Source: Pseudoxanthomonas sp. PXM03 (GTDB taxonomy: Bacteria > Pseudomonadota > Gammaproteobacteria > Xanthomonadales > Xanthomonadaceae). From it: a DNA stretch of 64,000 nucleotides. Shown one piece after another: positions 10,949 to 18,346 of the stretch. The stretch is from NCBI RefSeq assembly GCF_014852005.1, contig NZ_JACVAU010000001.1, positions 124,001-188,000 of the forward strand, in the 5' to 3' direction. Position 1 is the stretch's first letter. Each line of letters opens with the position of its first letter. The notes beneath the pieces were generated by a model, which was not told the origin of the DNA, ran no database searches, and saw nothing but the letters and a program-made list of their open reading frames with translations. Both the position numbers and the translations under genes were made by a program.

Positions 10949-11281
10949 TCAGGGCGTGCTTCCCAGCGCCCGCTGCTGGCGCTGGTGATGGATGTCCAGG
11001 TAGAGGCTGTAGGCGGCGGTGAAGGCGGGCAGCAGGTTCTGCAGCACGCCTACCGCATCCTGCTTGGACGAGAACAGGAAGTAGCTCAACGCCATCAGGC
11101 TGCCGCACAGGCTCATGTACCAGAACAGGCGCGGGATCACCGGGCGGCGTGCGCGCCGCGATGCGACGAACTGGACCAGCCAGCGCGCGCCGAACAGGGC
11201 GGCGCCGGTCAGGCCGATCAGCTTCCACGGCGTCATGTGCAGGCCGGTCCAACCCAGCCAGACGATTTCCTGGTCCATCAT
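10949..11281 (-). CDS. LAB_N-domain small membrane protein (lipid-A-disaccharide synthase N-terminal-like)
   Basis: Integral membrane protein of 110 aa with three hydrophobic segments, matching the LAB_N family (pfam07578) that is also found fused to LpxB in some species. Typical features are the WLGWTGL start, a GxxxFGARWLVQFVASRR segment and a C-terminal LLPAFTAAYSLYLDIHHQ. The start is MMDQ at 11281 (second ATG 11278). It sits 2 bp after the GT2 gene as the last gene of the PAP2-ept-GT2 operon. LAB_N proteins often accompany ArnC/DPM1-type transferases and may assist lipid-linked sugar handling; the function is not established. Confidence 0.82.
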   Translation of the reverse strand: MMDQEIVWLGWTGLHMTPWKLIGLTGAALFGARWLVQFVASRRARRPVIPRLFWYMSLCGSLMALSYFLFSSKQDAVGVLQNLLPAFTAAYSLYLDIHHQRQQRALGSTP

Positions 11282-11283
11282 GT

Positions 11284-12039
11284 TCACGATTTGCGCCCTG
11301 CATGGATCTCGCTGACGGCGGTCACGTGGCTGCGATGGATCAGCCACGACACGCCCATCAGATCGCGAATGCCGACCAGGGCGCGGCCCAGATTGGTGTA
11401 CTTCGATTGGCCGGACCCGCGTGGCCGGTGCGACACCGGCACGCTGACCGTCAGCCAGCCGGCACGCTGCATGAGCGCGGGCAGGTAACGGTGCATGTGG
11501 TCGAAATAGGGAAGCTCGAGGAACGCCGCACGCTCGAACAGCTTGATGCCGCAGCCGGTGTCGGGCGTGTCGTCATGCAGGAGCCACTGGCGGATGCGGT
11601 TGGCCCAGCGCGATGCCCAGCGCTTGCTGCTGGTGTCCTTGCGATCCACCCGCCAGCCCGCGTAGAGCCGGGTCTGCGGATTGCCCGCCTCGCGTGCCGC
11701 CAGCAGCTTGAGGATGTCGCCGGGATCGTTCTGGCCGTCACCGTCGAGGGTGACGATCCATGGCGACAGCGCATGCTTCACGCCGGTGCGGACGGCGGCG
11801 CTCTGGCCGCTGCGCCGGTGGTGCACCACCACGCGCAACTCCGGCACCTCGGCCTTCAACGCCGCGAGCACGTCGCGGGTGTCGTCTTCGGACTGGTCAT
11901 CCACGCAGACGATGTCGAACACGATGCGGCCACGGAGGTGCTGGACCACTTCGCGCACCAGCGGCCCGATGTTGCCGGCCTCGTTGAAAACAGGAATGAC
12001 GACGGAAAGGCTTGTCATGGGGGTGCTCGTCTCGACCAT
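11284..12039 (-). CDS. Family 2 glycosyltransferase, dolichyl-phosphate-mannose/ArnC-like
   Basis: Cytoplasmic-face glycosyltransferase, 251 aa, GT-A fold. It opens with LSVVIPVFNEAGNIGPLV, then VCVDDQSEDDT and TLDGDGQNDPGD (the DxD metal/nucleotide-sugar motif), and HRPRGSGQSKYTNLGRA near the end, all characteristic of DPM1-type enzymes that put a sugar on undecaprenyl or polyisoprenyl phosphate. There are no strong C-terminal membrane helices. It starts one base past the end of the phosphoethanolamine transferase gene; a second start at 12018 (MTSLSVV) is possible. Together with the ArnT-like protein at 14556-16271 it could form a lipid-linked sugar donor/transferase pair for lipid A modification. 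The sugar is unknown. Confidence 0.88.
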   Translation of the reverse strand: MVETSTPMTSLSVVIPVFNEAGNIGPLVREVVQHLRGRIVFDIVCVDDQSEDDTRDVLAALKAEVPELRVVVHHRRSGQSAAVRTGVKHALSPWIVTLDGDGQNDPGDILKLLAAREAGNPQTRLYAGWRVDRKDTSSKRWASRWANRIRQWLLHDDTPDTGCGIKLFERAAFLELPYFDHMHRYLPALMQRAGWLTVSVPVSHRPRGSGQSKYTNLGRALVGIRDLMGVSWLIHRSHVTAVSEIHAGRKS

Positions 12040-12040
12040 G

Positions 12041-13708
12041 TCAGCGTGCGCTCCTGCAGGTCAGGAAAATGTCGTAGTCCGGCTGATACAGCGATGTCTT
12101 CACGTCGGTGAGTCCCAGTACGGTGTGGAAAAGCTGGTCATGGCTGGCCTGCCTGCCCGTGCGGTCGCGCAGGCACTGCGGATCCAGGTGCGTGGATTGC
12201 CGCCACGAGGGCGAGAACCACGCGACCATCGGCACGTCGAGTTGCTCGCGTGGCGCGATGGCATAGGGCATGCCGTGCAGGTAAAGGCCCTTCTCGCCCA
12301 GCGATTCGCCGTGGTCTGAGACATAGAGCAAGGCCGTGTCGTAGCCCGGGAGCGTCGACAGGCGATCGATCGCGCCCGCGAGTACGTGGTCCGTGTAGGC
12401 GAGTGCGTTGTCGTATGCATTGACGATCTGCGCGCGGCTGCAGCGCCCAAGATCCGAGGTCTCGCAGACAGGCGTGAAGCGACGGAAAGCAGGCGGGTAG
12501 CGCTCGAAGTAGGTCGGGCCGTGGTTGCCCAGCATGTGCAGCACGATCACCTGGTCGCCCTTGTTGCGCGCGACGCTTTCCTCCAGCCCTTCAAGCAGGA
12601 TGCCGTCGAAGCAGCGCGTCCCGTTGCAGAGTGCGGGGTCCTTGCGTGCATGCAGGTCTTCGACCGGCAGTCCGGTACAGACGCCTTTGCAGCCGGACTG
12701 GTTGTCGCGCCACAACGTGGCCACGCCCGCGCGTTGCAGGACGTGCAGCAACGACTGGTGGCTGCGGATCGCTTTTTCGTCGTAGTTTTCGCGTCCCCAC
12801 GGCGAGAACATGCAGGGCAGCGAGACCTCGGTGCTGCTTCCGCACGCAGTGACGTGCGGGAAGTTGAGGACGTCGCGTGCCGCCAGTTCCGGCGTGGTCT
12901 GGCGCGCGTAACCGTTGAGGCCCCAGTTGGCGGCACGCGCGGTCTCGCCCACCACCAGCACCAGCAGGCGTGGCCGCCGCATGGTGGCAGCGGGCGACTG
13001 CACGGCGTCCTCGCCGATGGGAAGTCGGGTATGGGCGCGGCCGGGCGGGTCTTCGCTGACCACCTTCGCCAGCGACACGAGTACGTTGGCGGGCGTGACG
13101 AGGTAGCGCACTTCGCGCTGGTTGCGCAGGAAGGCGGTAAGCGGTTGCAGGGAAGGCAGCACGCCGACCAGCCCGACCAGGACCATGCCGAGGAGGAAGA
13201 CGCTGCGCGCCAGCATTGCGCGCGCAACGCCGCGCGGCCGCAGGCGCACGCGCCACACAACGAATAGCGGAGGCACCGCCGCCAGCAATGGCAGCAGCGC
13301 ATCCGGGCCGGCGAGGTCGGCGGCCTCGCGCCAATCGGTGTGCAGGACGTTGCGGACCATGTCGGCGTCGATGTAGATGCCGTACGCGGCCATGTAGTGC
13401 CCGGCCAGCGCCGCGACCACCACCAGCAATGACAGCACCACGCGCGCGGTACGGCGCCAGACCAGCAGCGACAGCCAGATCCCGTGCACTGCGGTGACCA
13501 GCAGGAACAACGACAGCGTCCAGGTTCCCTGTGCCCATGGCTGCGGGGACGCCGCCCGCCAGAAGACCGCGTTCGCGAACAGGCTGAAGTAGAGGCAGGC
13601 CGCCAGGATCAGTGTTTCCGTGCCCACCAGCGGGCGGACCGCCAGCGCGGCACGCAACCGTTGCCAACGAGAGAGTGCGCCTGCGTGATCGAGCACCGAA
13701 ACGCTCAT
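12041..13708 (-). CDS. eptA: Phosphoethanolamine--lipid A transferase (EptA/MCR family)
   Basis: Inner-membrane enzyme transferring phosphoethanolamine from phosphatidylethanolamine to lipid A, 555 aa. About five N-terminal membrane helices lead into a periplasmic alkaline-phosphatase-like domain. Zinc ligands and nucleophile are in place: Glu255 in VGETARA, Thr293 in SSTEVSLPC, Asp465-His466 in SDHGES, plus His395 and His478 and the family's paired cysteines. The start at 13708 overlaps the PAP2 stop as ATGA and has GGAGG seven bases upstream; 13714 is an alternative. This chemistry lowers surface charge and is linked in the family to polymyxin tolerance. It is second in a four-gene operon with TCCGAC-type repeats upstream. 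Confidence 0.92.
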   Translation of the reverse strand: MSVSVLDHAGALSRWQRLRAALAVRPLVGTETLILAACLYFSLFANAVFWRAASPQPWAQGTWTLSLFLLVTAVHGIWLSLLVWRRTARVVLSLLVVVAALAGHYMAAYGIYIDADMVRNVLHTDWREAADLAGPDALLPLLAAVPPLFVVWRVRLRPRGVARAMLARSVFLLGMVLVGLVGVLPSLQPLTAFLRNQREVRYLVTPANVLVSLAKVVSEDPPGRAHTRLPIGEDAVQSPAATMRRPRLLVLVVGETARAANWGLNGYARQTTPELAARDVLNFPHVTACGSSTEVSLPCMFSPWGRENYDEKAIRSHQSLLHVLQRAGVATLWRDNQSGCKGVCTGLPVEDLHARKDPALCNGTRCFDGILLEGLEESVARNKGDQVIVLHMLGNHGPTYFERYPPAFRRFTPVCETSDLGRCSRAQIVNAYDNALAYTDHVLAGAIDRLSTLPGYDTALLYVSDHGESLGEKGLYLHGMPYAIAPREQLDVPMVAWFSPSWRQSTHLDPQCLRDRTGRQASHDQLFHTVLGLTDVKTSLYQPDYDIFLTCRSAR

Positions 13709-14427
13709 GCGCATGCCTCCGTCGTCACCGGGCCGCGTCGCGCGCCGACTCCCTCGACGGCACAGGCGATGGTCCAGCACACCGCCAGGCTGGCGACGTC
13801 ATGCGACAGGAAGTGCGCGCCGCGCAGCTGCTGCGCCAGGCCGAAGACGCCACCCGCCAGCAGCCCGATCGCGAGCCCTGCATGCCGCCATCGGGGCGCG
13901 ACGTGCAGGAAGAAAAAGTACGACGCCACCCAGGCATAGCCACTGGCGGCGTGCGCGGCGGGAAAACAGGCGGCGTGGCCCAGCGAAATAGGGCGCGGTG
14001 CCAGCAGCGGCACGTAGGCGCGTTGGCCGCCGAAGCCCGCCAGATCCCATGGGCAATCCACCTGCGTGACCGCCTTCAACAGGGCCACGCATGCGGTGGA
14101 CGCGAGCAGTGCCAGCAGCAGGCGGGCGGCAGGGCGCGTCCATGTGGCCGATGCAGGCTTCGCCCAGTGCACCAGGGTGGCGGCCAGCAGGCCAAGCCAA
14201 GCCAGCAGGCTCGCGGTGCGGCCGCCGCGATGCAGGACGGTTTCCAGCAACACGCTGCGCTTCAGCGACCACGCATCGCCTTCCCAATGGAACAGCCAAC
14301 CCGCCCAGGGCAGGTCGATGCGGCACGCCAGCAGCCACGCGATCAGCAGCAGGGGTAAGGAAACCAGCGCGAGGCGCGGCCAGGAACCTGCCGTCGAAGG
14401 AGAGCGCGGTAGCGATGAAACGGGCAT
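13705..14427 (-). CDS. PAP2-family membrane phosphatase (LpxE-like candidate)
   Basis: Integral membrane phosphatase of 240 aa (250 if the ATG at 14457 is used), with about six hydrophobic segments. The three PAP2 signature blocks are recognisable in order: KAVTQVDCPWDL, FPAAHAASG and RGAHFLSHD with the catalytic His. In other bacteria a PAP2 enzyme (LpxE) removes the lipid A 1-phosphate before EptA adds phosphoethanolamine, so its position upstream of eptA with an ATGA overlap suggests lipid A or undecaprenyl-pyrophosphate dephosphorylation. I prefer the start at 14427 because the likely promoter element at 14473-14500 would otherwise be only 15 bp from the start codon. Neither start has a good Shine-Dalgarno sequence. 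Confidence 0.85.
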   Translation of the reverse strand: MPVSSLPRSPSTAGSWPRLALVSLPLLLIAWLLACRIDLPWAGWLFHWEGDAWSLKRSVLLETVLHRGGRTASLLAWLGLLAATLVHWAKPASATWTRPAARLLLALLASTACVALLKAVTQVDCPWDLAGFGGQRAYVPLLAPRPISLGHAACFPAAHAASGYAWVASYFFFLHVAPRWRHAGLAIGLLAGGVFGLAQQLRGAHFLSHDVASLAVCWTIACAVEGVGARRGPVTTEACA

Positions 14428-14472
14428 GCGGATGCGAGTGCAGGAAGGTGCACGCATGCTCGTGGCCGCGAT

Positions 14473-14500
14473 GTCGTAGCGCAGTCGGACAGCCGTCGGA
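14473..14500 (-). promoter_or_regulatory. Tandem hexamer box (TCCGAC-N5-TCCGAC) before the PAP2-eptA operon
   Basis: On the plus strand GTCGTA (14473), GTCGGA (14484) and GTCGGA (14495) recur with an exact 11-bp period. Read in the direction of the operon this is TCCGAC-N5-TCCGAC-N5-TACGAC. The hexamer-N5-hexamer architecture is that of OmpR-family sites such as the PmrA box. The same hexamer occurs in the control region of the adjacent response regulator (16312-16347). Binding by that regulator is inferred. Confidence 0.6.
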
Positions 14501-14555
14501 AACGCGTTAAGTCACGCGCGAATGATTCCCGCCTGCACGCGGCGTTGTTTCGGAT

Positions 14556-16271
14556 TCAGTCTTCGCCGACATCCGCCGACCAGTCGGGTGGCACATCGCA
14601 GCCTTCGATCCAGGCATCCCCGGGTGCAAGAATCCATGCGCGCCGGTTGGATGCGCCGATGTCGATCACCTTCGCCGGATCCAGGCACGGGCCGATGGCT
14701 TCCCTGCGCAGGAAAAGCCAGCGCTTCGCCGGCGCTTGCAGCAGCCACGCGTGCGCATGCTGCCACTGCGCCGCCCAGGGCTGCTTGAAGCCGAAGTCGG
14801 TCACGGGCCGGTCCGCCTGCAGCAGGTGCTGTTCGCGCCAGCCCAGCATGGCCAGTTCGGCATCCGGACCGATCCGCTCGCCGACGCGCTGCATCAGCGC
14901 CTTGGCCGAACTGTCGGGGCTGAGCGCCGGCATGAAGCCCATGCCATACGCCGTCCACAGGGCGGCCGTCACGGCGACCAGCGCCACCGGCACATGTCGT
15001 CGCGCGGCGACTATCGCGGCGAGTGCGACGACAGCGAATCCCAGCAGCCATCCGCTCAGCTGCGCGACCGTCGCCATGTCCATGCCGCGGCCGTCGAGCA
15101 GTGCGTGCAGGCGCTCGGGTGGCGCCATCGACAGCCACGCGCCCAGCATGCCTGCGACCAATGCCAGCACGGCCATGTACGACCACAGCGTTGCGCGCAC
15201 CGCGCGTCGTCGCAACAGGCCCGGGAGCAGCGGTGCCGCCGCCACCGCCAACGCCGGCAGCATCGGGAAGATGTAGACCTCGCGCTTGCCCGGGCTGGCG
15301 CTGAAGAACACCAGCACCAGCGCCGCCCAACCCAGCAGCAGGACGTGGCGCGCATCCGGCCGGCGCACGCGCCGCCACCACGCGGGCAGCAGCCACGGCG
15401 CCAGCAGCACGCCGGGCAGCCACAGCGTCAGCATCGCTTGCAGGTAGTACCACGCCGGTTTCACGTGATGCCATGCGTTGGCATAGCGCGTGCCGGTCTG
15501 CTTGAACAGCATTTCGCGCGCATACCCCTGCAGCGCGGGGTCCGGGGAAGAGAGCGCCGTCGCCAGCATCGGCACGAGCCACGTGCCCGCACCCAGCAGG
15601 AATCCCGCCACGCCTGCAAGCACGTGCACGCCACGCGGTGCGGGCAGCGCCCGGGATGCCGTCCGTCGCGCCCACAGCCACGGCAGGAACACCAGCAGCG
15701 GCAGGAAGCCGACTCCCTTGGTCACCGTGCCCAGGCCGGCGGCGAACGTGCCGAGCGCCAGCAGCCACGGACTCGGCTTCTCCAGCAGATAGCGCAGCAA
15801 CGCCCACAGCGACAGCGTGGTCATGGCCACCAGCACCATGTCGATCTGCGCACGCTTGGCCTGCAGAGCGAACTGCAGGCAGACGAACAGGCCGAAGACG
15901 GCGTAGGGCATTGCGTGCCGGCCCCACAGGCGGCGCGCCAGGTCACCGGACAACCCGAGCGTCAGCAGCGCGGCCAGCAGCGACGGCAGCAGGAACGCCA
16001 CCTGCCAGCTGCGCACCAGCAGGTAGCTGACGGCCTGCAGCCACATGAATGTCGGAGGCTTCTCGGCGTACAGCTCCACGCCACGGTGCGGGAACAGCCA
16101 CTGGCCGGTCTCCACCATCGTCCGCGCGGCCAGCACGAAGCGCGGTTCGTCCGCCGGCATCGGTTCGCGCATGCCCAGTCCCGCCAGCAGCGCCCACACC
16201 ATCAGCACGAGCAGCAGCGGCGTCTGCCAGCCGGGGGCGTGTTGAAGGCGCATCGGGCGCATGGGGGGCAT
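14556..16271 (-). CDS. ArnT-like GT83 membrane glycosyltransferase
   Basis: Large polytopic membrane protein, 571 aa with roughly a dozen hydrophobic segments, of the ArnT/PMT superfamily that transfers a sugar from a polyprenyl-phosphate carrier to lipid A on the periplasmic side. The first periplasmic loop has MREPMPADEPRFVLAARTM with the catalytic-type DEPR motif and AEKPPTFMWLQA like ArnT; KRAQIDMVLV and TKGVGFLPLL follow. The start is uncertain: ATGs at 16271, 16262 and 16253 are in frame and none has a clear ribosome site. It lies upstream of the PAP2-eptA operon on the same strand with a 98-bp gap, and is divergent from the response regulator. Sugar identity (aminoarabinose or other) is not determinable; arnABCD are absent from the window. 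Confidence 0.85.
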   Translation of the reverse strand: MPPMRPMRLQHAPGWQTPLLLVLMVWALLAGLGMREPMPADEPRFVLAARTMVETGQWLFPHRGVELYAEKPPTFMWLQAVSYLLVRSWQVAFLLPSLLAALLTLGLSGDLARRLWGRHAMPYAVFGLFVCLQFALQAKRAQIDMVLVAMTTLSLWALLRYLLEKPSPWLLALGTFAAGLGTVTKGVGFLPLLVFLPWLWARRTASRALPAPRGVHVLAGVAGFLLGAGTWLVPMLATALSSPDPALQGYAREMLFKQTGTRYANAWHHVKPAWYYLQAMLTLWLPGVLLAPWLLPAWWRRVRRPDARHVLLLGWAALVLVFFSASPGKREVYIFPMLPALAVAAAPLLPGLLRRRAVRATLWSYMAVLALVAGMLGAWLSMAPPERLHALLDGRGMDMATVAQLSGWLLGFAVVALAAIVAARRHVPVALVAVTAALWTAYGMGFMPALSPDSSAKALMQRVGERIGPDAELAMLGWREQHLLQADRPVTDFGFKQPWAAQWQHAHAWLLQAPAKRWLFLRREAIGPCLDPAKVIDIGASNRRAWILAPGDAWIEGCDVPPDWSADVGED

Positions 16272-16311
16272 GCCGGTCTGCAACGCGGCGCATGATCGTG
16301 GATGATGGGGC

Positions 16312-16347
16312 GTAGGAGATTCGTCGGAATTCCGACGGCGCTTCGAC
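16312..16347. promoter_or_regulatory. Two back-to-back hexamer-N5-hexamer boxes in a divergent promoter
   Basis: A 36-bp block lies between the ArnT-like gene and the response regulator. From left to right it reads GTAGGA, 5 bp, GTCGGA, AT, TCCGAC, 5 bp, TTCGAC. The centre (16322-16337) is a perfect 16-bp palindrome, and each half carries a second hexamer exactly 11 bp away with one mismatch. Each half therefore forms a PmrA-like direct-repeat box oriented toward one of the two divergent genes (40 bp from the ArnT-like start, 51 bp from the regulator start). It probably binds the OmpR-type regulator at 16399, implying autoregulation. Confidence 0.62.
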
Positions 16348-16398
16348 GTCCGGCCTGCGATGCTGCCGGTCCTTCCCCTGCTGGCGCGGACCTTGCCG

Positions 16399-17103
16399 AT
16401 GCGGCTGCTGGTCATCGAAGACAACCGGAACCTGGTGGCGAACCTGTTCGATTACTTCGAGGCGCGCGGCCACACCCTGGACGCGGCGCCCGACGGCGTG
16501 ACCGGCCTGCACCTGGCCAGCACCCAGGTCTACGACGCCATCGTGCTGGACTGGATGCTGCCGCGCCTGGAGGGCCCGGAAGTGCTGCGCCGCCTGCGCG
16601 AGGAGCACGACTCCAGCGTGCCGGTCATCATGCTGACCGCGCGCGACGAACTGCCCGACAAGATCGCCGGTTTCCGCGCGGGCGCCGACGACTACCTGAC
16701 CAAGCCGTTCGCGCTGCCGGAACTCGAAGTGCGGCTCGAGGCGCTGATGGCGCGGATGCACGGCCGGCAGCGGCGCAAGGTGCTCGAAGTGCACGACCTG
16801 AAACTCGACCTCGCCACGCTGGAGGCTACCCGCGCCGGGCAGGTGCTGCATCTGTATCCCGCCTGCCGCAAGCTGCTGGAAACGCTGATGCAGGCCAGCC
16901 CTGCCGCCGTCACCCGGCAGCAGCTGGAACATGCGCTGTGGGGCGACCACCCGCCGGATGGCGACATGCTCCGCTCGCACATCTACGAATTGCGCCGCAG
17001 CGTGGATGGCCCGTTCCCGGTGAAGCTGATCCAGACCCTGCCCCGCACCGGCTACCGTCTGGCGGTCACCCATCCGGAGGGACGCGATGGCAAAGCGCCG
17101 TAG
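16399..17103 (+). CDS. OmpR-family response regulator of the lipid A modification locus
   Basis: Two-component response regulator, 234 aa. The receiver domain (1-118) has acidic pocket residues ED (7-8), phospho-acceptor Asp51 in VLDWMLP, Thr80 in MLTAR and Lys102 in TKPF. A C-terminal winged-helix Trans_reg_C domain ends with RSHIYELRRSVDGPF and LPRTGYRL. The start at MRLLVIEDN (16399) is preferred over the ATG at 16360, which would add a hydrophobic N-terminus unlike the family. Its 3' end overlaps the kinase gene by 17 bp. Adjacent eptA, PAP2 and ArnT-like genes suggest a PmrA-like role; the TCCGAC repeats are the likely binding sites. Confidence 0.92.
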   Translation: MRLLVIEDNRNLVANLFDYFEARGHTLDAAPDGVTGLHLASTQVYDAIVLDWMLPRLEGPEVLRRLREEHDSSVPVIMLTARDELPDKIAGFRAGADDYLTKPFALPELEVRLEALMARMHGRQRRKVLEVHDLKLDLATLEATRAGQVLHLYPACRKLLETLMQASPAAVTRQQLEHALWGDHPPDGDMLRSHIYELRRSVDGPFPVKLIQTLPRTGYRLAVTHPEGRDGKAP

Positions 17104-18346
17104 CCTGCATGCGAAAATCAGGCGTCTGCTCGGTGGTTACGCGGTATTGCTGGCCGCCATCATCATCCTGGTCTTCGCGGATGACTTCCTGGAGGACTGG
17201 GTCTGGAAGTTGCTGCTCCAGCAGGAGATCGTGCACTACGTCCAGCAGAAGGCCGCAGATCCGGGCCACGAATGGCGTGACACCGACGCGATACAGCTCT
17301 ACAGGGTGCCGGGCCGCCAGCCCCCGCCCGGCCTGTCGATGCTGCCGCAAGGCGTGCACGATGATTTCTGGTTCGGCGGGCGCGAGAACGTGGTGCTGGT
17401 CCAGCGCGTGCAGGGCGTTGACTACTTCGTCGTGCGCGACATCACCGGGATCGAGACCATCGAGGACGCCCTGCTCCTGGGATCACTGGGTCTGGCGTTC
17501 ATCGCGCTGGTAGTCATAGGGGTGATGGTCGCCCGGGGCGTGCGGACTGCGCTGCGTCCCCTGTCCGACCTCGCGAACGACATCGGTGCGCTTTCTCCCG
17601 ATCATGCCGGCCAGCGCGTGGTCGTGGCGGACGGCGCCAGTTCCGAGCTGCATGTCATCACCAACGCCCTGAACGATTACCTGCGCCGCCAGGATGACTT
17701 CGTCGAGCGCGAGCGCACCTTCATCGACACCGCCAGCCACGAACTGCGTACGCCTATCGCCATCATGGCGGGCGCCAGCGAACTGGCACTGGAGCAACCC
17801 GGCCTGCCAGCGCCGGCGCGCCAGCAGGTGCAACGCATCCATCGCACGGCCCGCGACGTGGAGCGCCTGATCGCCCTGCTGCTGACGCTCGCCAAGGACC
17901 CGGCACGGTTGTCGCGCAGCAACGAAGTGGTGATGCTGCATGAACTGCTGCCGGACATCATCGACGACCACCGCCACCTGCTGGCGGGCAAGGATCTTTC
18001 CATCGTGGTCGACGAACTGCTGCCATGCACGGTGTCCGCGCCCCTGCACATCGTCCAGGCGGCCATCGGCAACCTGCTGCGCAACGCCATCGAGAACAGC
18101 GACCGCGGCGAGATCCACATCCGCCTCGACGCCGATGCCACCGTCACCCTGCAGGATCCCGGGCACGGCATGTCTCCGGAAGACATCAGCCGCATCTACG
18201 CACAGCTGGCGCGCGGCGGGAGTCGCGAAGGCGGCGGCATCGGACTGGATCTGCTGGCACGCCTGTGCGAACACCTGGGCTGGACGCTGTCGATCCAGTC
18301 GGCGCCGGGGCGCGGCACGATCAGCCGGCTGCGCCTCTCGCGCTGA
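17087..18346 (+). CDS. Sensor histidine kinase, partner of the upstream OmpR-type regulator
   Basis: Inner-membrane sensor kinase, 419 aa. It has a first membrane segment at about 15-31, a periplasmic sensor of about 95 residues, a second segment at about 128-149, a HAMP-like linker, the H-box DTASHELRTP with His218, the N-box NLLRNAIENS, DPGHGMS and GGIGLDLLARL for ATP binding. The periplasmic part is rich in Asp, Glu and His, which would suit sensing of cations, pH or cationic peptides, but the signal cannot be read from sequence. It overlaps the response regulator by 17 bp, so the pair is translationally coupled. Confidence 0.92.
   Translation: MAKRRSLHAKIRRLLGGYAVLLAAIIILVFADDFLEDWVWKLLLQQEIVHYVQQKAADPGHEWRDTDAIQLYRVPGRQPPPGLSMLPQGVHDDFWFGGRENVVLVQRVQGVDYFVVRDITGIETIEDALLLGSLGLAFIALVVIGVMVARGVRTALRPLSDLANDIGALSPDHAGQRVVVADGASSELHVITNALNDYLRRQDDFVERERTFIDTASHELRTPIAIMAGASELALEQPGLPAPARQQVQRIHRTARDVERLIALLLTLAKDPARLSRSNEVVMLHELLPDIIDDHRHLLAGKDLSIVVDELLPCTVSAPLHIVQAAIGNLLRNAIENSDRGEIHIRLDADATVTLQDPGHGMSPEDISRIYAQLARGGSREGGGIGLDLLARLCEHLGWTLSIQSAPGRGTISRLRLSR

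Follow-up and report, generated by a model that had tools for sequence, protein, structure and literature searches.

The TCCGAC direct repeats that precede the lipid A modification genes of Pseudoxanthomonas sp. PXM03 are very probably operators of the response regulator encoded beside them, a protein that its gene neighbours and its low score on the PmrA family model place with Xanthomonas RaxR (Pseudomonas ColR) and not with PmrA. This reading is based on the elements themselves, their conservation and spacing, the geometry of their promoters and their co-occurrence with raxR, all of which were observed. A RaxR operator is the most likely explanation and points to a lipid A regulon that appears to have been kept across the Xanthomonadaceae genera examined.

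RaxR is the Xanthomonas orthologue of Pseudomonas ColR, and its control of the raxRH-arnT-lpxE-eptA cluster has been proposed in Xanthomonas (PMC8306577). The consulted part of that paper names no operator, and neither "promoter" nor "binding site" nor "direct repeat" appears in its text; a description of a RaxR operator was also not found in the open-licence literature searched, nor was TCCGAC in the papers listed there, a search outside which most subscription journals lie. To that work the present analysis adds the operator, the promoter geometry and a family-wide test. A box with a fixed promoter geometry makes the proposal testable by footprinting and reporter assays, and lets the regulon be read from genome sequences across the family, crop pathogens among its members.

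The lipid A locus and its conserved boxes

Inspection of the window, which is the whole stretch of 64,000 nucleotides analysed, revealed the following genes.

16399..17103, + strand: raxR, OmpR-family response regulator
17087..18346, + strand: raxH, sensor histidine kinase with a TM2-proximal ETIE (ExxE) motif
14556..16271, - strand: arnT-like GT-C glycosyltransferase (start approximate)
13705..14427, - strand: lpxE-like PAP2 phosphatase (revised start)
12041..13780, - strand: eptA, phosphoethanolamine transferase (longest frame; true start nearer 13711)
11284..12039, - strand: GT2, ArnC-like glycosyltransferase
10949..11347, - strand: LAB_N small membrane protein (longest frame)

Pfam matches comprised receiver and Trans_reg_C, HisKA and HATPase, PMT_2, PAP2, EptA_B_N and Sulfatase, GT2, and LAB_N domains. 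The locus is the raxRH-arnT-lpxE-eptA cluster described in Xanthomonas, where the RaxH-RaxR locus has the same gene set and divergent order (PMC8306577). In one relative (L134), the neighbour of eptA encodes an M2 peptidase (Pfam PF01401, 669 bits), an arrangement that the same paper also shows for X. oryzae. At a paralogue locus, the closest by DNA identity of four named genomes was Pseudoxanthomonas beigongshangi (81% over 3.8 kb), the other three matching over shorter pieces at 69-83%, which makes an origin of the window in or close to Pseudoxanthomonas probable. Two tandem raxR-like genes flanking GT2-LAB_N were observed at L138 (4428-5117 and 6493-7185, in raxR orientation) and at L155 (4386-5060 and 6480-7172).

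An earlier note had described TCCGAC hexamers recurring in the window at an exact 11-bp spacing, three of them before PAP2-eptA-GT2-LAB_N and two outward-facing pairs at 16312-16347, between the ArnT-like gene and the response regulator, with a 16-bp palindrome at their centre. Each of these was verified: the minus strand at 14500-14473 reads TCCGAC-N5-TCCGAC-N5-TACGAC, and the palindrome lies at 16322-16337. The half-sites, boxes and predicted -10 elements are as follows.

14506..14511, - strand: half-site CTTAAC, degenerate, first of four in the lpxE promoter and in the same 11-bp phase
14495..14500, - strand: half-site TCCGAC, second in the lpxE promoter
14484..14489, - strand: half-site TCCGAC, third in the lpxE promoter
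14473..14478, - strand: half-site TACGAC, fourth in the lpxE promoter
14456..14461, - strand: predicted -10 GAGCAT of the lpxE operon, at the fixed distance from the last half-site
16312..16328, - strand: box TCCGAC-N5-TCCTAC facing arnT
16295..16300, - strand: predicted -10 CACGAT of arnT
16331..16347, + strand: box TCCGAC-N5-TTCGAC facing raxR
16359..16364, + strand: predicted -10 GATGCT of raxRH

The lpxE promoter of the window has the order CTTAAC, TCCGAC, TCCGAC, TACGAC, 11 bp, GAGCAT. The palindrome was considered as a functional unit and rejected, because its 2-bp centre and the gap between the outward boxes vary between loci; the gap ranged from 2 to 35 bp in 22 loci, two negative values among these arising from a tie between overlapping matches. 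It arises incidentally where two outward-facing boxes meet end to end.

Conservation was assessed in 61 loci, consisting of the window and 60 relatives in 21 genera that were hand-picked among the matches listed (RaxR identity of at least 75%) and spread over genera. The 88 upstream regions of these loci, the window included, were scanned, an upstream region being a stretch of at most 450 bp between gene matches in which some coding sequence is possible. The box TCCGAC-N5-TCCGAC was present in all 88, matching at 12/12 positions in 57, at 11/12 in 28 and at 10/12 in 3. Dinucleotide shuffles gave an expectation for 88 regions of 3.7 at 10, 0.27 at 11 and none at 12; boxes of at least 11/12 were thus observed in 85 of 88 regions, compared with about 0.3 by shuffles. 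A spacer of 5 gave 140 matches and a spacer of 16, the next 11-bp phase, gave 33, with every other spacer at 12 or fewer. When the 120 anagrams of the hexamer were compared, the best other one was the one-base shift CTCCGA (54 matches), and the rest gave 5 or fewer. Box density was 5.87 per kb in upstream regions versus 0.021 per kb in the remainder of the same loci. A de novo dyad count, blind to the hexamer already noticed, ranked CGAC-N7-CGAC first, and this dyad was found in 60 of the 68 regions outside ten close loci.

OmpR-type hexamer-N5-hexamer boxes are present before all three units, as had been suggested, and are conserved at the orthologous promoters, the place where a lack of the repeats was to have counted against the suggestion. 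Their conservation strengthens the observation well beyond what a single genome would allow. Of 232 genomes in a class-wide search, 4 had RaxR at an E of 1e-75 or better; three of these belong to the family, and the stretch fetched around the fourth (L258, 56% identity) held no box of at least 11/12, so that the box was followed no further than the family. A scan of named genomes gave no RaxR orthologue among the matches listed, the best being at most 52% identical.

Promoter geometry and the sign of control

A -10-like hexamer, defined by A as its second letter and T as its last, was found to start 28 bp after the start of the box at 44 of 54 sites that face lipid A genes and at 23 of 31 that face raxR, a placement that leaves 11 bp between the end of the second half-site and the hexamer. 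At raxR-facing sites, offset 27 accounted for 8; no other offset held more than 7 lipid-A-facing or more than 3 raxR-facing sites. For this count, the 3'-most of tied sites was chosen and sites below 11/12 were dropped, which kept 73 lipid-A-facing sites from the 88 regions and 42 raxR-facing sites from the 61; the 54 and 31 are distinct sites, with the ten close loci and duplicates left out. In those ten loci the lpxE register was moved along by 11 bp to bring the last pair into place before the -10, and the scan of the window genome with box and -10, giving 1 mismatch in the shifted register versus 2 in the unshifted one, supports the shift.

Promoters of lpxE and eptA mostly contained four half-sites, and those of arnT and raxR two. 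An upstream TTAAC was present at -21 in 27 of 48 lpxE/eptA-type sites outside the close group and, after the 11-bp shift, at the first half-site in 10 of 10 close loci, the window included; it was absent at arnT sites (0/15) and at raxR sites (0/42).

With its second half-site ending 11 bp before the -10, the box covers the -35 region, as is the case in class II activation by regulators of the OmpR/PhoB type. The sites described here consist of direct half-sites one helical turn apart at a fixed distance from the -10, and the regulator is composed of receiver and winged-helix domains. The layout is that of an OmpR/PhoB-type class II activator site, from which activation is predicted. The same geometry bears on two start codons (window 14425-14457 and 16360-16399), at which the longest-frame starts overlap a predicted -10 and the next ATGs are likelier. 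Because the ATG at 14457 falls in the predicted lpxE -10 and that at 16360 in the predicted raxRH -10, the probable starts are 14427 for LpxE and 16399 for RaxR, so that two likely start codons are corrected.

In the mechanism that we infer, from signal and binding to activation and chemistry, RaxH in the membrane would sense an envelope or metal signal and phosphorylate RaxR, dimers of which would occupy TCCGAC half-sites head-to-tail and one helical turn (11 bp) apart. The bound half-sites would lie in the position of a -35 for sigma-70 RNA polymerase, and RaxR would recruit the polymerase to the -10 lying 11 bp downstream. The lpxE-eptA-GT2-LAB_N promoter would accommodate two dimers (four half-sites), and the arnT and raxRH promoters one dimer each. 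The outcome would be a coordinated remodelling of lipid A, by phosphoethanolamine addition, dephosphorylation and the addition of sugar with a lipid-linked donor. Excess metal, to which ColS responds (PMC4074579, PMC9952513), is a plausible signal for RaxH by analogy, since the sensor keeps the TM2-proximal ExxE motif; the motif was found in 45 of 61 loci and is ETIE in the window.

RaxR may, on the other hand, bind with mixed sign, activating lpxE-eptA and repressing arnT or raxRH. The ColR protein of P. aeruginosa activates eptA and is reported as a repressor of the arn operon (PMC8306577), which makes activation at arnT less than certain, and the arnT and raxR sites have two half-sites where most lpxE/eptA sites have four. 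Set against this, the raxR-facing sites share the activator-like distance to the -10 and the arnT site of the window fits the same composite pattern. Control of mixed sign is on balance rather unlikely.

The probable identity of the regulator

The association of the box with RaxR was further assessed in 296 family genomes, a RaxR orthologue (best E at or below 1e-80) being present in 167 of them and absent from 129. The exact box with its -10 was found in 140 genomes, and the reversed pattern gave one match in all. The box with its -10 occurred in 138 of the 167 genomes with RaxR, being absent from 29, and in 2 of the 129 without. Both exceptions are short contigs (4636 and 4498 bp) on which eptA, lpxE and arnT are present and the sequence stops at the point where raxR would come next. 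The proposal that the local two-component system controls eptA, the ArnT-like gene and itself is favoured in its first two parts, by boxes that are conserved and co-occur with RaxR, whereas self-control would hold for some lineages: a raxR-facing box of at least 11/12 was present in 42 of 61 loci and lacking in 19. Autoregulation of raxR would, as judged from these boxes, be lineage-dependent. ColR of P. putida is reported not to control its own gene (PMC2689224).

The boxes could be bound by another regulator linked to the module, such as a RaxR paralogue, with RaxR merely co-occurring. By co-occurrence RaxR is inseparable from the rest of the module: 24 of 30 RaxR-less genomes examined were also without an EptA homologue (E 1e-40), and in the six that keep an EptA-like gene the stretch fetched held no box that passed the filter. 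The co-occurrence therefore indicates that module and box go together and does not by itself name the binder. Furthermore, the genome that contains the window encodes three more regulators matching RaxR at an E of 1e-60 or better. Matches of this quality are, however, present in 294 of the 296 genomes, yet the RaxR-less ones are almost devoid of boxes; the box faces raxR itself in the majority of loci noted above; and no box of at least 11/12 was found at four RaxR-paralogue loci used as controls (L039-L042). Binding by such a regulator in place of RaxR is improbable.

Binding by a PmrA-type regulator, local or encoded elsewhere, has still less to recommend it. The hexamer-N5-hexamer layout of the OmpR family and targets of the eptA/arnT type in lipid A modification are common to the PmrA box and the box described here, and CTTAAC at 14511-14506 resembles the PmrA half-site YTTAAK (PMC10927774). 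That upstream element was the only one near YTTAAK, the conserved core being TCCGAC, and the box tracks RaxR across genomes. The local regulator lies outside the PmrA family model, scoring 131 bits against an NCBIfam cut-off of 330, and the PmrA kinship suggested by the earlier note found no support. PmrA boxes are a very improbable explanation.

The gene content, by contrast with PmrA, matches RaxRH/ColRS: the regulator gene adjoins genes of the lpxE, eptA and arnT type, and the operator is composed of two AC-ending hexamers at an 11-bp period. The seven published ColR sites of P. putida are mostly TTTSAC-like hexamers with an 11-bp period (PMC2689224), and likewise repeat, in direct orientation, a hexamer whose last two letters are AC. 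One of them lies between the PAP2 gene PP0900 and colR, a likeness to the locus described here, and dgkA belongs to the P. putida ColR regulon, just as the box precedes dgkA in some relatives (PMC2689224). The half-sites themselves differ, TTTSAC-type in P. putida (PMC2689224) versus TCCGAC here. The P. putida consensus TTTTTSAC was not found, CC replacing TT at hexamer positions 2-3, and for this reason the motif is called ColR-like rather than a P. putida box. When the RaxR and ColR matrices were compared in all registers (mean -0.04, sd 0.14), the best was the one that aligns with the ColR core, with a modest mean column correlation of 0.32. The motif appears to resemble a diverged ColR box. 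VgrR of X. campestris (PMC5231390), once also named ColR, is a paralogous regulator with an iron regulon, in contrast to the lipid A genes controlled here according to the prediction.

Within the 4.03-Mb genome, exact TCCGAC-N5-TCCGAC occurred once, at lpxE. When each of two window regions was shuffled 3000 times with dinucleotides preserved, a score of at least 11/12 was reached in 4 shuffles of the arnT-raxR region and 1 of the lpxE region, and 12/12 in none. The bare pattern at up to one mismatch was not enriched genome-wide (20 matches versus 27 for the reversed control) and, as a genome-wide search, the bare hexamer pair was rejected as too weak in favour of the box with its -10. The latter also showed no enrichment in this genome at up to two mismatches (26 versus 25 for the reversed control) and was informative at up to one mismatch only, where three of four matches were the three promoters of the locus; the fourth (L182, one mismatch) is covered by long open frames on both strands. 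The signal is the position of the boxes, not their number. Chance repeats in G+C-rich DNA, for which one might cite the lack of genome-wide enrichment at one mismatch and the 17 window matches at two mismatches (8.9 expected, with 2 of 100 shuffles reaching 17), are refuted by conservation, spacing, geometry and co-occurrence and retain virtually no credibility.

A possible wider regulon and the sugar donor

Twenty boxes outside the raxR intergenic region, hand-picked among the matches listed and not a random sample, were inspected, and 8 of the 20, those in the first six lines below, lead into lipid A genes or their partners.

L213, L214: box before dgkA-lpxE-eptA
L225: box before dgkA, then arnT
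L222 (2541, + strand) and L223 (2581, - strand), genus g43: box and -10 before an epimerase-GT2-LAB_N operon, away from raxR
L226: box before lpxE-eptA
L227: box before a PMT_2 glycosyltransferase, with GT2 further on, just after raxH
L229: box before an eptA homologue
L217-L221, L224: box before a conserved membrane protein of ~120 aa with no Pfam match
L215, L216: box before a Sulfatase-domain membrane protein of 672 aa (longest frame)
L228, L230: box before a DUF347 membrane protein
L231, L232, genus g42: box before a MerR-like frame (family assigned by eye)

For dgkA of the window genome, the stretch fetched gave just two matches at 9/12, and both lacked the A and T of a -10.

Each of the 17 genomes searched had one copy of GT2, always beside LAB_N, and in 12 of them the pair lay away from the locus. 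With a filter requiring a box score of at least 10 together with the -10 letters, none of the 12 unlinked GT2-LAB_N loci had a box of at least 11/12, and 10/12 was found in L241, L244 and L247. Because the full box occurs only in L222 and L223, clusters that were found through the box itself, the link of the box to GT2-LAB_N is not general. In these two, the box is predicted to place supposed ArnT donor genes under the same control, which would, for some lineages, tie the unassigned GT2-LAB_N pair to ArnT through common regulation. In make-up, the epimerase-GT2-LAB_N trio matches the PXO_RS22260-22270 cluster, considered as a source of the ArnT donor in PMC8306577, where linkage of its last two genes to arnT in other species is also described.

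Ara4N as the ArnT sugar has already been doubted (PMC8306577). The window genome contains a single Formyl_trans_C match, in an open frame of 310 aa that would fit methionyl-tRNA formyltransferase; as this is the lone match, ArnA and the supply of Ara4N seem to be absent, and the sugar added by the ArnT-like enzyme is therefore probably not Ara4N.

Taken jointly, these observations allow a tentative reading, somewhat doubtful as a whole, in which RaxR would be a dedicated switch for lipid A remodelling in the Xanthomonadaceae lineages that keep it, its operator having drifted from the TTTSAC of ColR to TCCGAC. In some lineages the box might also mark supply lines: dgkA would deal with the diacylglycerol that EptA leaves behind, and epimerase-GT2-LAB_N would provide the lipid-linked donor of the sugar. 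Since no ArnA-type formyltransferase was found in the window genome, the sugar added by the ArnT-like enzyme might differ from Ara4N and could be a uronic acid.

Two of the products encoded behind boxes may be mentioned separately. The ~120-aa membrane protein of L217-L221 and L224 is a candidate new lipid A or envelope gene product, and the Sulfatase-domain protein of L215 and L216 resembles relatives of LTA synthase or of phosphoethanolamine transferases.
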